A DNA stretch of 33,070 bases from Gemmatales bacterium (GTDB taxonomy: Bacteria; Planctomycetota; Planctomycetia; Gemmatales; HRBIN36), in NCBI GenBank assembly GCA_025056555.1, contig JANWVZ010000023.1, forward strand, positions 1-33,070. The letters run 5' to 3'. The notes below the pieces were generated by a model. The model had not been told where the DNA came from. It was given only the letters and a program-made list of their open reading frames with translations, and searched no databases. The first letter of the stretch is position 1. Each line of letters opens with the position of its first letter. Position numbers and translations under genes: made by a program. Shown here piece after piece: positions 20,157 through 24,067 of this stretch.

Positions 20157-21041
20157 ATGCTGGAATTGCGGATGCGAACCGTTCCCACAGTTCCGTTGGA
20201 AGCCGAATGTATCTCCCCAGACCGGTTAAGCTCCCTCAGAACCGAAGAGATCGCCAGGCAAAGCGTGCTTTATGGCAATCGCGAGGAACAGTTGGGAGAG
20301 TTTTTCACCGTTTACGGTTCCGCCGAAGATGGTGAGGTGCATGTCGAGGGAGAATTATCGAAGGTCAAGTGGCTCGGCGCGCAGATGACCCGTGGCCGTC
20401 TGGTGATCCATGGGACAGTCGGAATGCACCTGGGTTCGCAAATGCGGGGAGGAAGCATCGAAGTATTCGGCGATGTCGGGGACTGGTTGGGCGCTGAGAT
20501 GCGTGGCGGGAAGATTCATGTCCACGGCAACGCAGGCCATCTGGCTGGCGCTGCGTATCGGGGCAGCCGTGCCGGCATGCGAGGCGGTGTTATTCTGATT
20601 GAAGGCCACGCGGGTTTCGAGGTGGGGCACGGCTTACGGCGGGGGCTGATTGTCATCGGCGGCGACGTCGGGGACTTTTGCGGTGTGAACGTTCTGGCTG
20701 GGACAATTTGCGTGTTTGGTCGAGTCGGTTGGCGGGTCGGCGCGGGGATGAAGCGCGGCAGTGTCGTGCTCGCCCATCCCCAAAGCGGTTTTGAACCCTT
20801 GGCAACTTATCGGCGGAGCGGACTCTTCGAGTCGGTTTGGTTGCGCGTTCTGGGTCGGCAGTTGGCCCAATGGGGGTTTACTCCGCTCGCGACAGAACCG
20901 GCGCCCTCCAGGCCCAAATCCGCCCAACACAGCTATACGGCGACGGAGACTACTCCGACCTGGTGCACGGGACGATTCTGGCGTTACTGTGGCGACTTTG
21001 CTGAGCTTGCCAAAGGGGAGATCCTGGTGCGGGAATCATAA
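20157..21041 (+). CDS. fwdC: formylmethanofuran dehydrogenase subunit C (FwdC/FhcC)
   Basis: A 294-residue structural subunit of formylmethanofuran dehydrogenase, or of the bacterial formyltransferase/hydrolase complex, in methanofuran/tetrahydromethanopterin-dependent C1 metabolism. Residues ~65-205 form the hallmark beta-helix of G-x2-G-x3-G-x-x-M/R-x-G repeats ('VGMHLGSQMRGGSIEVFG', 'VGDWLGAEMRGGKIHVHG', 'AGFEVGHGLRRGLIVIGG', 'VGWRVGAGMKRGSVVL'), the same fold as the glutamate synthase alpha C-terminal domain. The C-terminal 'FWRYCGDFAELAKGEILV' is typical of FhcC/FwdC. It starts 6 nt after DUF2617 and ends overlapping the minus-strand RraA-like gene by 6 nt. The partners FwdD and FwdB follow after that inserted gene. 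Confidence 0.9.
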   Translation: MLELRMRTVPTVPLEAECISPDRLSSLRTEEIARQSVLYGNREEQLGEFFTVYGSAEDGEVHVEGELSKVKWLGAQMTRGRLVIHGTVGMHLGSQMRGGSIEVFGDVGDWLGAEMRGGKIHVHGNAGHLAGAAYRGSRAGMRGGVILIEGHAGFEVGHGLRRGLIVIGGDVGDFCGVNVLAGTICVFGRVGWRVGAGMKRGSVVLAHPQSGFEPLATYRRSGLFESVWLRVLGRQLAQWGFTPLATEPAPSRPKSAQHSYTATETTPTWCTGRFWRYCGDFAELAKGEILVRES

Positions 21042-21698
21042 GATGCCGTAGCGGGCAAACGTTTCGCGAACACTCTTGCCAGCGGCCAATTCGTCGCGGA
21101 CACGGTTCTCACCTGTAACTTTGGCCAAGGCCTGGCGCAGGGCCGGCTCCGCCAGTTCTGCCGGGATGACGATCACGCCGTCAAAGTCGGCATAGAGAAT
21201 GTCGCCGGGATTGACCATACACTCACCAATCAGGACTGGCCCGTTCATAAACAGTCCTTCCAGACGACCTTTGGAATCCAGGGGCGTGACCCCTGCGGCA
21301 AAAACCGGGAAATCGAGGCGGAGAATTTTCTCGACATCACGGGTCAGGCCGTCAGTAACGACACCAGCAACCCCGCGTGCCTTACAGGCGGTCGAAAGTA
21401 ACTCTCCCCAAAGCGCACCACTGGTATCATTGCGTGTGCTGGCCACCAGCACCTCGCCGGGCTGCAACTGATCCACGCACTCCATTTCCAAAGCATACGG
21501 CGTCTGTGGCACCTGCAAGGCGGGGCCAAACGCAATGGTAACCACGCGACCAACAATGCGCCAATGCGGTGCCAGTGGACGAATGTAGTGGGGCAGCGCG
21601 CTGGTGCGATGGCCCAGACTGTCCAGCACGTCGGCAAGCACTGCGCTGTAGAGGACATGCTGATGCCGGCGATACTGTTCCAACACTTCTTCGTTCAT
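21036..21698 (-). CDS. RraA-like family protein
   Basis: A 220-residue protein of the RraA/4-hydroxy-4-methyl-2-oxoglutarate aldolase superfamily. Landmarks are 'SAVLADVLDSLGHR', 'GEVLVASTRNDTSGALWGEL', 'ACKARGVAGVVTDGLTRDVE' with the R120-D121 pair, 'CMVNPGDILYADFDGVIVIP' and a helical C-terminus. Aldolases carry an acid three residues after that Asp (R-D-x2-E/D). Here position 124 is Lys with Glu at 123, so aldolase activity is uncertain, and RNase E regulation is equally unproved. The start is set at ATG 21698 because GGGAGCGGA precedes it; the longer frame to 21782 has no family similarity. It lies antisense between fwdC and fwdD. Confidence 0.85.
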   Translation of the reverse strand: MNEEVLEQYRRHQHVLYSAVLADVLDSLGHRTSALPHYIRPLAPHWRIVGRVVTIAFGPALQVPQTPYALEMECVDQLQPGEVLVASTRNDTSGALWGELLSTACKARGVAGVVTDGLTRDVEKILRLDFPVFAAGVTPLDSKGRLEGLFMNGPVLIGECMVNPGDILYADFDGVIVIPAELAEPALRQALAKVTGENRVRDELAAGKSVRETFARYGIL

Positions 21699-21834
21699 GG
21701 TTCCGCTCCCGCATGGACGGGGCAACTTTGCTCCTCGAAAGCCTCTGGCACTAAAATAGGGTACAGGTGCGGCAATTTCCAATCAGGTGAAGATTCGGGC
21801 ATGGCAGCGGACGCCAGCTTTTTGTCCGACCGAC

Positions 21835-22230
21835 ATGACGCCAACTTTTCTGCTCATCGCGGGACGAACGTCGCGGCAGGGAACCAGTCTGAACGATAGC
21901 AAATTCGGTGCAGAATATCTCGAGGAAACGCGGACACTCCTGCTGCACGCTGAGGACTTGAAGCAACTGGGGCTGCAGTCGGGCCAAAGAATTCGTGTCC
22001 GCAGCGCCTGGGGCGATGCGGAAGTAATCGCCCAGGTGGACAAGCGTGGGGAATTGCCTCGGGGAGTCGTGTTCATCGCCTATGGCGAAGTCTCCAGCCG
22101 ACTTATGGGCGGCGATACTCACGGCACGGGAATGCCGGACAGCAAGGGGATCGAAGTGGTCATCGAGCCAGGGCCGGTGGCACCTGGCCCGCCTGCGGAC
22201 GACCTGAACTCATCGGAGCAAGGATCATGA
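21835..22230 (+). CDS. fwdD: molybdopterin dinucleotide-binding subunit of formylmethanofuran dehydrogenase (FwdD)
   Basis: A ~131-residue double-psi beta-barrel protein that matches FwdD/FmdD and the C-terminal domain of molybdopterin oxidoreductases. 'LLIAGRTSRQGTSLNDSKFGAEY', 'LHAEDLKQLGLQSGQRIRVRS' and 'GEVSSRLMGGDTHGTGMPDSKGIEV' are the typical dinucleotide-contacting segments. It completes the cofactor pocket of FwdB, whose start codon overlaps this stop by 4 nt. ATG 21835 fits the family N-terminus; the frame also opens at GTG 21787, and neither start has a convincing Shine-Dalgarno. A weak TTGCTC-18-TAAAAT candidate promoter (21728-21757) lies in the gap shared with the divergent RraA-like gene. 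The C-terminal ~20 residues form a Pro-rich tail. Confidence 0.85.
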   Translation: MTPTFLLIAGRTSRQGTSLNDSKFGAEYLEETRTLLLHAEDLKQLGLQSGQRIRVRSAWGDAEVIAQVDKRGELPRGVVFIAYGEVSSRLMGGDTHGTGMPDSKGIEVVIEPGPVAPGPPADDLNSSEQGS

Positions 22231-23555
22231 GTACCTCAGCGGAAAGTTTGCGCGTCATCGAAAACGCTACCTGCACTTTCTGCGGTTGCGTCTGCGACGA
22301 TATGGTGCTCAAGGTGCAGGGAGACCGCATTGTCGAAGCCAAGAACGCCTGTGTTTTGGGTAAGGCATGGTTTCTGAATCATCATCCGGAAAATCGTCCC
22401 CTGGCTACCATCGAAGGCAAGCCGGTCAGCCTGGACGAAGCCGTTGAGCGCGCGGCGCAGATTCTGGTGCAGGCGCGTTATCCTGTAGTCTATGGGCTTT
22501 CCGACACCACCTGCGAAGCGCAGCGGATTGCGGTAGCCATTGCCGATTGGATCGGGGCCTGCGTGGACACCACGACTTCGGTCTGTCATGGGCCTTCCGG
22601 CATGGCGTTTCAGGGGGTCGGGGAAGTCACTTGTTCTCTGGGAGAAGTCAAAAATCGCGCCGATTTGGTCATCTTTTGGGGTTGTAATCCTGCAGAGTCG
22701 CATCCTCGACACATGACCCGCTATTCGACGATGCCGCGGGGCCTGTTTGTTCCGAAAGGACGCAAAGATCGCACCGTGGTTCTGGTGGATGTCCGCCGAA
22801 CCAAGACTGCTCCCGCAGCGGACATTTTCCTCGCCATCAAACCGCGCAAAGATTTCGAGGCTCTCTGGGCACTGCGAGCTATCGTCAAAGGCATGGAGGT
22901 AGATGAGCGCATCGAGGAAGAAACGGGCCTGTCCATGGCCCAGCTGAAGGACCTGGCACAGCGGATGAAATCGTGCAAGTTCGGCGTGCTTTTCTTCGGC
23001 ATGGGTTTGTCCATGACGCGAGGCAAACATCTCAACGTAGAAGCAGCATTAGCTCTGGCCCGCGACCTCAACCAGTTCACCAAGTTCTACATCAAACCGA
23101 TGCGGGGCCACGGTAATGTGACCGGCGCGGATAATGTCGTCAGCTGGCAGACCGGGTATCCGTTCGGCGTCAATCTGGCTCGAGGCTATCCACGGTTCAA
23201 CCCCGGCGAATACACCACGGCTGATCTCCTGGCACGGGGCGAAGCGGATGCCGCTCTCATTATCGCTTCCGACCCGCTGGCCAATTTCTCCCAACCTGCG
23301 CGAGAACACCTCCGCCGCATTCCTTACATCGCCCTGGACCCGAAGGAAACGCCGACGACTCGCCACGCCACCGTCGCCTTCACCACGGCCGTTTATGGCA
23401 TCAACGTGGCCGGAACCGTGTATCGTATGGACGACGTTCCCATTCGCCTGCGTCCGGCCCTGCCTTCCCCTTATCCCAGCGATGAAGAAGTGCTTCGTCG
23501 AATTGAACGGCGTGTCCGCCAATTGCTGGGTCATCCCAGCAGCGTCCATCCCTAG
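22227..23555 (+). CDS. fwdB: formylmethanofuran dehydrogenase subunit B (Mo/W catalytic subunit)
   Basis: A 442-residue FwdB of the molybdopterin oxidoreductase superfamily. It catalyses CO2/formate redox chemistry within formylmethanofuran dehydrogenase. A [4Fe-4S] motif is intact: C16-x2-C19-x3-C23 in 'CTFCGCVCDD' plus C42 in 'KNACVLGKAWF' (C21 is an extra Cys). 'SVCHGPSG' places C120 where archaeal FwdB has its tungsten-ligating Cys. Later conserved parts include 'WGCNPAESHPRHMTRYS', 'VLVDVRRTKTAPAAD', 'MRGHGNVTGADNVVSWQTGYPFGV' and 'IALDPKETPTTRHATVAF'. The length agrees with the archaeal subunit (~430). By contrast, proteobacterial FhcB has lost its metal centres. It overlaps fwdD by 4 nt and is followed 14 nt later by the zinc-ribbon gene. 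No FwdA is in the window. Confidence 0.92.
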   Translation: MSTSAESLRVIENATCTFCGCVCDDMVLKVQGDRIVEAKNACVLGKAWFLNHHPENRPLATIEGKPVSLDEAVERAAQILVQARYPVVYGLSDTTCEAQRIAVAIADWIGACVDTTTSVCHGPSGMAFQGVGEVTCSLGEVKNRADLVIFWGCNPAESHPRHMTRYSTMPRGLFVPKGRKDRTVVLVDVRRTKTAPAADIFLAIKPRKDFEALWALRAIVKGMEVDERIEEETGLSMAQLKDLAQRMKSCKFGVLFFGMGLSMTRGKHLNVEAALALARDLNQFTKFYIKPMRGHGNVTGADNVVSWQTGYPFGVNLARGYPRFNPGEYTTADLLARGEADAALIIASDPLANFSQPAREHLRRIPYIALDPKETPTTRHATVAFTTAVYGINVAGTVYRMDDVPIRLRPALPSPYPSDEEVLRRIERRVRQLLGHPSSVHP

Positions 23556-23569
23556 CCAGACGATGAGCC

Positions 23570-24067
23570 ATGCCCCAAAACCTCCCTGAAGAGCCGCTTA
23601 GCGCTGAGCCCCACGATTCCGACTTGCGTGGCCGTACCTCTAAGTCCGAACGGCGTCGCTCCCGCAAAGCAGTCCTGGTCGCCTTTAAGGTTGAGCCGGA
23701 ATTGGCCCAGATTCTCGACCAGCTACCCAACAAGAGCGACTTCATTCGGCGCGCGATTATTGCCCAGCTGAATATGGGATGTCCGCTGTGCGCGGGCACG
23801 GGGGTGCTGCCTCGGGGCTTGCACGACCACTATGCCCAACACCTGCGAGAAATCGCGCAACGCCACTGCGACCGTTGCGGCCGCACGGAACCCCTGCCTG
23901 CTTCTGCGGCCGACATCCCGGCTCAAGATCGGCCACGATTGGAACAGTTTTTCTTCGGCGGCCCGTTTTACTGTCACAATTGCTACGACACGGCACCTGT
24001 CTGTCGCGAATGCGGCTGGCACATTGCCCCAGAGCAGGCCCGGCAACATCACCACGACCACCGCTAG
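23570..24067 (+). CDS. ribbon-helix-helix protein with four CxxC pairs, candidate regulator
   Basis: A 165-residue soluble protein. Residues ~34-68 ('AVLVAFKVEPELAQILDQLP' then 'KSDFIRRAIIAQL') look like a ribbon-helix-helix DNA-binding domain preceded by a very basic stretch 'SKSERRRSRK'. Four CxxC pairs follow: C71/C74, C100/C103, C135/C138 and C145/C148, enough for two zinc or iron sites, with a His-rich tail (H160-H162, H164). The architecture suggests a metal- or redox-responsive transcription factor. It starts 14 nt after fwdB, so it is probably in the same transcript and could regulate the cluster, though that is inference. I do not recognise a named family. A non-regulatory metal-binding accessory protein is the alternative. 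Confidence 0.75.
   Translation: MPQNLPEEPLSAEPHDSDLRGRTSKSERRRSRKAVLVAFKVEPELAQILDQLPNKSDFIRRAIIAQLNMGCPLCAGTGVLPRGLHDHYAQHLREIAQRHCDRCGRTEPLPASAADIPAQDRPRLEQFFFGGPFYCHNCYDTAPVCRECGWHIAPEQARQHHHDHR

Follow-up and report, generated by a model that had tools for sequence, protein, structure and literature searches.

A probable archaeal-type formyl-methanofuran dehydrogenase in a Gemmatales bacterium and a decayed sister paralogue in other planctomycetes

Contig JANWVZ010000023.1 of a Gemmatales bacterium (assembly GCA_025056555.1), the 33,070 nucleotides of which are called the window in the following, carries genes for the subunits FwdB, FwdC and FwdD of a formyl-methanofuran dehydrogenase. 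The locus raises the question whether these proteins still perform redox chemistry like the archaeal Fwd enzymes or belong to a hydrolytic complex like Fhc of methylotrophic proteobacteria. A sequence-only reading of the window had pointed to retained metal centres and had suggested true formate/CO2 chemistry; its observation was confirmed, and its interpretation is partly supported by the data presented here. We conclude that the window probably encodes the BCD part of an archaeal-type bacterial formyl-methanofuran dehydrogenase, which would oxidize formyl-methanofuran to CO2 as the last step of formaldehyde oxidation linked to tetrahydromethanopterin (H4MPT).

The closest solved structures to FwdB were archaeal FwdB subunits (approximately 44% identity in the structure match), namely 5T5I_B (E=5e-126) and 8RJA_B (4e-124). 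The proteobacterial FhcB 6S6Y_B matched at 1.6e-17, with the best stretch in the C-terminal half. In the alignment with 5T5I_B, cysteines C16, C19, C23 and C42 of FwdB fall on C9, C12, C16 and C35, and C120 falls on the tungsten ligand C118. Thus, the cysteines named in the sequence-only reading stand in register with the archaeal ligands. Three further residues, H121, R293 and H295, are the counterparts of H119, R288 and H290 of 5T5I and were invariant in 23 of 23 intact planctomycete and 5 of 5 archaeal sequences. C120 was invariant in the same sequences, save for 9SFI, which has an X at this position (a non-standard residue, possibly selenocysteine). The equivalent of His119 has been discussed as a gate, and His290 has been named among the residues around the metal (PMC11656701). 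An AlphaFold2 model of FwdB, built without cofactor from an alignment of 34 sequences, had a mean pLDDT (predicted local distance difference test) of 89.7 and gave TM (template modelling) scores of 0.91-0.92 to archaeal FwdB and of 0.68-0.69 to FhcB. Sequence and predicted fold support the assignment of FwdB to the Fwd type and not to the Fhc type.

For the intact planctomycete FwdB, screening one genome per species yielded 435 relatives. Motif and neighbour counts refer to the best 80 of them, nearly all of which come from metagenome-assembled genomes (MAGs) labelled as planctomycetes. Each of these 80, the most distant at 68% identity, had both the pattern CxxCxxxC..C and the motif SVCHGP[S/T]. 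One locus (L132) was at first taken for a relative without the ligand; this was rejected, since the pattern had caught an earlier HGPS and the real motif is SVCHGPS. The nearest relative was the Gemmatales MAG SKYB77, whose FwdB is 91% identical and which shares with the window the order polA-like open reading frame (ORF), DUF2617, fwdC, rraA, fwdD and fwdB. Identity and gene order support the planctomycete assignment of the window. That the fwd genes reached this MAG by archaeal contamination might be suspected from its fragmentation (374 contigs, 87% complete), but it is contradicted by the synteny with SKYB77 and by a tree that places FwdB within planctomycetes, and we regard it as highly improbable.

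Five loci (L095, L099, L116, L071 and L118) labelled Euryarchaeota, Ardenticatenaceae, Nitrospirae and Kuenenia also carry a planctomycete-like fwdB. Either these MAGs were wrongly binned or labelled, or the gene was transferred; L099 and L116 have a near-basal position in the intact clade. Among 246 genomes drawn from the phylum, six had a complete intact FwdB and one had a fragment. Two of the six (family f69; L015/G148 and L016/G117) possess an in-frame TGA exactly at the codon of the molybdenum (Mo) or tungsten (W) ligand (SL-TGA-HGPT), and probably encode a selenocysteine FwdB in another planctomycete family.

The proposal that a separate FwdD supplies the dinucleotide-binding domain held as well. 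FwdB (442 aa) and FwdD (approximately 131 aa) are two chains; a fused FwdB-FwdD chain of the formate dehydrogenase type (FdhF/FDH-alpha) is not present, and formate dehydrogenase profile models scored the window's proteins far under their cut-offs. Even though FwdD scored below the NF042908 cut-off (63.5 against 175 bits), its identity follows from PF01568, which lies above its cut-off, and from the match to solved FwdD structures. As had been stated, the window lacks genes for FwdA and Ftr, but other contigs of the genome encode them, C72 for FwdA and C154 for Ftr. The complex is therefore split, which had been suspected, though not incomplete. The best match of FwdA was archaeal FwdA (E=7e-150, versus 8e-110 for FhcA), and the counterparts of H57, H59, K64, K178, H231 and D385 of 5T5I_A were all kept; the zinc ligands are presumably among them. 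A gene for a sulfite-oxidase-fold molybdoprotein adjoins that of FwdA. The genome search proposed in the sequence-only reading further disclosed adjacent genes for Fae and MtdB (C288), a methanofuran-synthesis gene (PF04476; C329) and MobA (C119), while Mch was the one component not found. MobA and the presence of other bis-pyranopterin enzymes in the genome were counted in favour of an archaeal-type Fwd; C93 encodes a further oxidoreductase of this kind, related to formate dehydrogenases and nitrate reductases.

In the reaction that we propose, FwdA would hydrolyze formyl-methanofuran (or a methylofuran analogue) at a zinc site, and the formate would be kept in an internal cavity bridged by FwdC. 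Its oxidation to CO2 would take place at a Mo- or W-bis-pyranopterin centre between FwdB and FwdD, and the electrons would leave via the [4Fe-4S] cluster of FwdB to a soluble low-potential carrier, probably ferredoxin. The route would run from Fae over MtdB, Mch and Ftr to Fwd, which would replace both the hydrolytic Fhc complex and a separate formate dehydrogenase. The adjacency of Fae and MtdB favours the oxidative direction. A change in direction of the C1 pathway, one of two outcomes considered in the sequence-only reading, is thus not indicated, whereas the other, a changed end product, fits the proposed reaction, which would release CO2 and low-potential electrons instead of formate. A mainly reductive enzyme that fixes CO2 as formyl-methanofuran for assimilation would be in line with the reversibility of the archaeal homologues and with the low-potential ferredoxin pool suggested by neighbouring genes described below. 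Such a role is quite unlikely, however, because the adjacent Fae and MtdB-type dehydrogenase genes are those expected for formaldehyde oxidation, and because the formyl-methanofuran/CO2 couple lies near -0.53 V (PMC11656701), so that reduction is uphill without strongly reduced ferredoxin.

Some points speak against an oxidative Fwd enzyme. Ligand residues do not prove insertion of the cofactor, the loading of which we infer, and the metal, Mo or W, is not readable from the sequence (PMC11656701). Neither a polyferredoxin FwdF/FwdG nor another dedicated electron-transfer subunit recurred within 10 kb of FwdB in the 80 loci, a whole-genome search for them not having been made. For Mch no match was obtained in the window's genome, which is 87% complete. 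Since 31 of 34 planctomycete genomes searched, including that of the closest relative, contain Mch, an assembly gap is the likely, though not proven, reason for its absence, and a broken pathway was rejected as the explanation. Finally, contig C140 encodes a separate formate dehydrogenase alpha subunit, so that Fwd need not be the formate-oxidizing step. This subunit could also serve an Fhc-like hydrolase: formate would be released from formyl-H4MPT by FwdA and Ftr, with FwdB and FwdD as structural relics, and the formate dehydrogenase would complete the oxidation. The oxidative H4MPT pathway in the same genome fits such a scheme, and planctomycetes with a decayed FwdB share the same pathway genes. 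Yet ligand and pocket persist in all 80 relatives, which is not expected of relics. Relaxed constraint looks instead like the sister paralogue, with its long branches and the loss of C120, H295 and FwdD. We therefore consider an Fhc-like hydrolase unlikely.

The sister paralogue forms a second FwdB clade in other planctomycetes, which is fast-evolving and has a decayed metal site. A tree of 40 sequences, with archaea as the root, placed 24 intact and 11 decayed FwdB on separate sides of a branch (SH-aLRT, a Shimodaira-Hasegawa-like approximate likelihood ratio test, 95 and 99). The tree program warned of long branches among the decayed copies, the internal order of which is unsure. One genome (G087) contains an intact and a decayed FwdB. 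All 11 decayed copies retained the four Fe-S cysteines, which were consequently rejected as a marker of the Fwd type; in this respect the sequence-only reading, which had used them to separate Fwd from Fhc, was not borne out. C120 was kept in two of the 11 copies, R190 and N143 in one each and H295 in none, and in three the ligand loop was wholly gone. A stand-alone FwdD was encoded by each of the eight tested genomes of the intact type with a complete FwdB, but by none of 13 genomes with the decayed type only, whose FwdD matches sit exclusively inside large fused enzymes. The chance of this split would be approximately 5e-6 if the genomes were independent; as they are related, the value is descriptive. 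C120, H295 and a stand-alone FwdD are the features that discriminate intact from decayed copies. The loss of the metallopterin in Methylorubrum Fhc has been attributed to the absent D subunit and remodelled loops (PMC11656701), a cause which the co-loss of FwdD in planctomycetes matches.

The genes around intact loci were clustered to identify recurrent neighbours. Besides FwdA, FwdC, FwdD and Ftr, these were aldehyde ferredoxin oxidoreductase (AOR; 19 loci), a MoaD/ThiS-like protein (13), a MobA-like guanylyltransferase (11) and MoeA (9, some fused to a PBP-like domain). At a rate of about 3 per 3.8 Mb, the 1.24 Mb covered should contain around one AOR; because the loci are related, the comparison with the 19 observed is descriptive. 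The position of the gene near fwdDB took at least three forms. It lay upstream in the same orientation, or it ran on the opposite strand, either between fwdC and fwdD or downstream. AOR-bearing loci include L069, L075, L130, L138 and 15 others, often with a MoaD-like gene alongside. Eighteen of the 19 neighbouring AORs belong to one subfamily. They share 45-52% identity with an AOR from the window's genome (C322), the nearest solved relatives of which are the Pyrococcus-type AOR and formaldehyde ferredoxin oxidoreductase. The other two AORs of this genome reach only about 28-37% identity with that subfamily. AOR or molybdenum-cofactor genes accompanied 27 of 85 intact but 0 of 8 decayed loci, a weak contrast as the decayed set is small. 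Enzymes of the AOR family typically use tungsten, and their linkage makes this metal plausible, rather than demonstrated, for Fwd.

These data are also compatible with a more tentative proposal, in which we place somewhat less than even confidence: a conversion may be in progress in planctomycetes. A probably tungsten-dependent archaeal-type Fwd, linked to a tungsten-type AOR, would let the bacterial formaldehyde-oxidation pathway finish with CO2 and low-potential electrons, no free formate being formed. Beside it, a paralogue would have turned into an Fhc-like scaffold through the stepwise loss of FwdD, of the ligand loop and of the active site.

On L056 (G079:C170, 1-5155), fwdB-fwdA-ftr-fwdC precede genes for a 4Fe-4S ferredoxin and for an FNR-like flavoprotein, through which electrons might pass. 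The genome of this locus yielded no Fae, Mch or MtdB, so that the contig may be stray. Ferredoxin and FNR were rejected as general electron partners, since both occurred on this one contig only; a ferredoxin also lies near FwdB in L048. On L145 (G000:C46, 1-1127), a second gene of the AOR family, truncated where the contig ends, lies beside a gene for a multi-cluster ferredoxin-like subunit and resembles Aromatoleum-type AOR operons.

The features of the window are compiled in Table 1. Judged from the alignment of starts, fwdD probably begins with the ATG at 21835 rather than with the first GTG of the ORF at 21787. Its end overlaps fwdB by the four bases ATGA, which suggests coupled translation. 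The RraA-like gene is inserted on the opposite strand between fwdC and fwdD. Among the 80 loci this placement was seen only in SKYB77 and was not detected in the fwd loci of other relatives. Directly 3' of fwdB (23570-24067, + strand), a small protein is encoded that combines a ribbon-helix-helix-like stretch with a cysteine-rich, zinc-ribbon-like part and is conserved in SKYB77.

Table 1. Genes and predicted sites of the fwd locus in the window
Feature	Position	Strand	Basis
FwdC, beta-helical bridging subunit	20157..21041	+	TIGR03122 253 bits (cut-off 131), full length; PDB 9SW6_K E=4e-50, 5T5I_C 4.5e-41
RraA-like protein between fwdC and fwdD	21036..21782	-	PF03737 130 bits; likely start ATG ~21698
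FwdD, molybdopterin-dinucleotide-binding subunit	21835..22230	+	PF01568 52 bits (above cut-off); NF042908 63.5 bits, E=2e-17; PDB 2KI8 FwdD-2 E=7e-16
FwdB, catalytic subunit, [4Fe-4S] site and Cys ligand for Mo/W (predicted)	22227..23555	+	TIGR03129 544 bits (cut-off 328); 5T5I_B E=5e-126
[4Fe-4S] motif CxxCxxxC...C, FwdB C16, C19, C23, C42	22272..22352	+	in register with 5T5I C9/C12/C16/C35
Mo/W-ligand motif SVCHGPS, FwdB residues 118-124	22578..22598	+	C120 = C118 of 5T5I, H121 = H119
Active-site R293-G294-H295 of FwdB	23103..23111	+	= R288-G289-H290 of 5T5I

With archaeal Fwd/Fmd (PDB 5T5I, 8RJA, 7BKB) the complex shares the subunits FwdA, B, C and D, the [4Fe-4S] cysteines, the Cys ligand, the equivalents of His119, Arg288 and His290, the metal-ligand residues of FwdA and the predicted fold. 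It differs in its bacterial host, in genes spread over several contigs beside Fae and MtdB, and in lacking a recurrent polyferredoxin near them. Fhc of Methylorubrum extorquens (PDB 6S6Y) also serves a bacterial H4MPT pathway and comprises homologues of FwdA/FhcA, B, C and Ftr, but has neither a D subunit nor a metallopterin site, whereas the window's genome has FwdD and the ligand set, with the loop intact. The planctomycete fmdDBAC of Porphyra isolate P2 (PMC4807772, 2016) agrees in phylum, enzyme type and Sec or Cys at the ligand position; it is a contiguous operon of the selenocysteine form, while the window's genes are of the Cys type and split. That paper also mentions homologues in other planctomycetes. 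Fwd of the Hakuba Actinobacteria (PMC7325909) is a bacterial FwdABCD as well, with Cys118, the [4Fe-4S] site and no FwdFG, but is encoded by an operon fwdDBA-ftr-fwdC in a Wood-Ljungdahl pathway setting, and methanopterin-synthesis genes were not found there. In 2020, the absence of bacterial representatives was still stated (PMC7331816), yet 149 bacterial FwdB have been counted, for which transfer from archaea was inferred (PMC10100899). Equating bacterial homologues with Fhc is consequently too coarse, as FwdB with intact ligands had been published from bacteria including planctomycetes (PMC4807772, PMC7325909, PMC10100899). The enzyme type is already known and widespread in planctomycetes. 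New here are the two paralogous FwdB clades in the phylum, intact with FwdD and decayed without it. Neither this split with its co-loss of FwdD nor the linkage to AOR and cofactor genes was found in the literature searched, most subscription journals lying outside it.

Provided that the enzyme is active, H4MPT-linked formaldehyde oxidation would end with an archaeal-type dehydrogenase in a sizeable share of a bacterial phylum. The product would then be CO2 and low-potential electrons, not formate, and annotating every bacterial homologue as Fhc would predict an incorrect end product. A simple marker, whether FwdD is present or absent, gives a practical annotation rule for intact and decayed paralogues, and the pair of paralogues offers a natural series for how a redox enzyme turns into a hydrolase scaffold.

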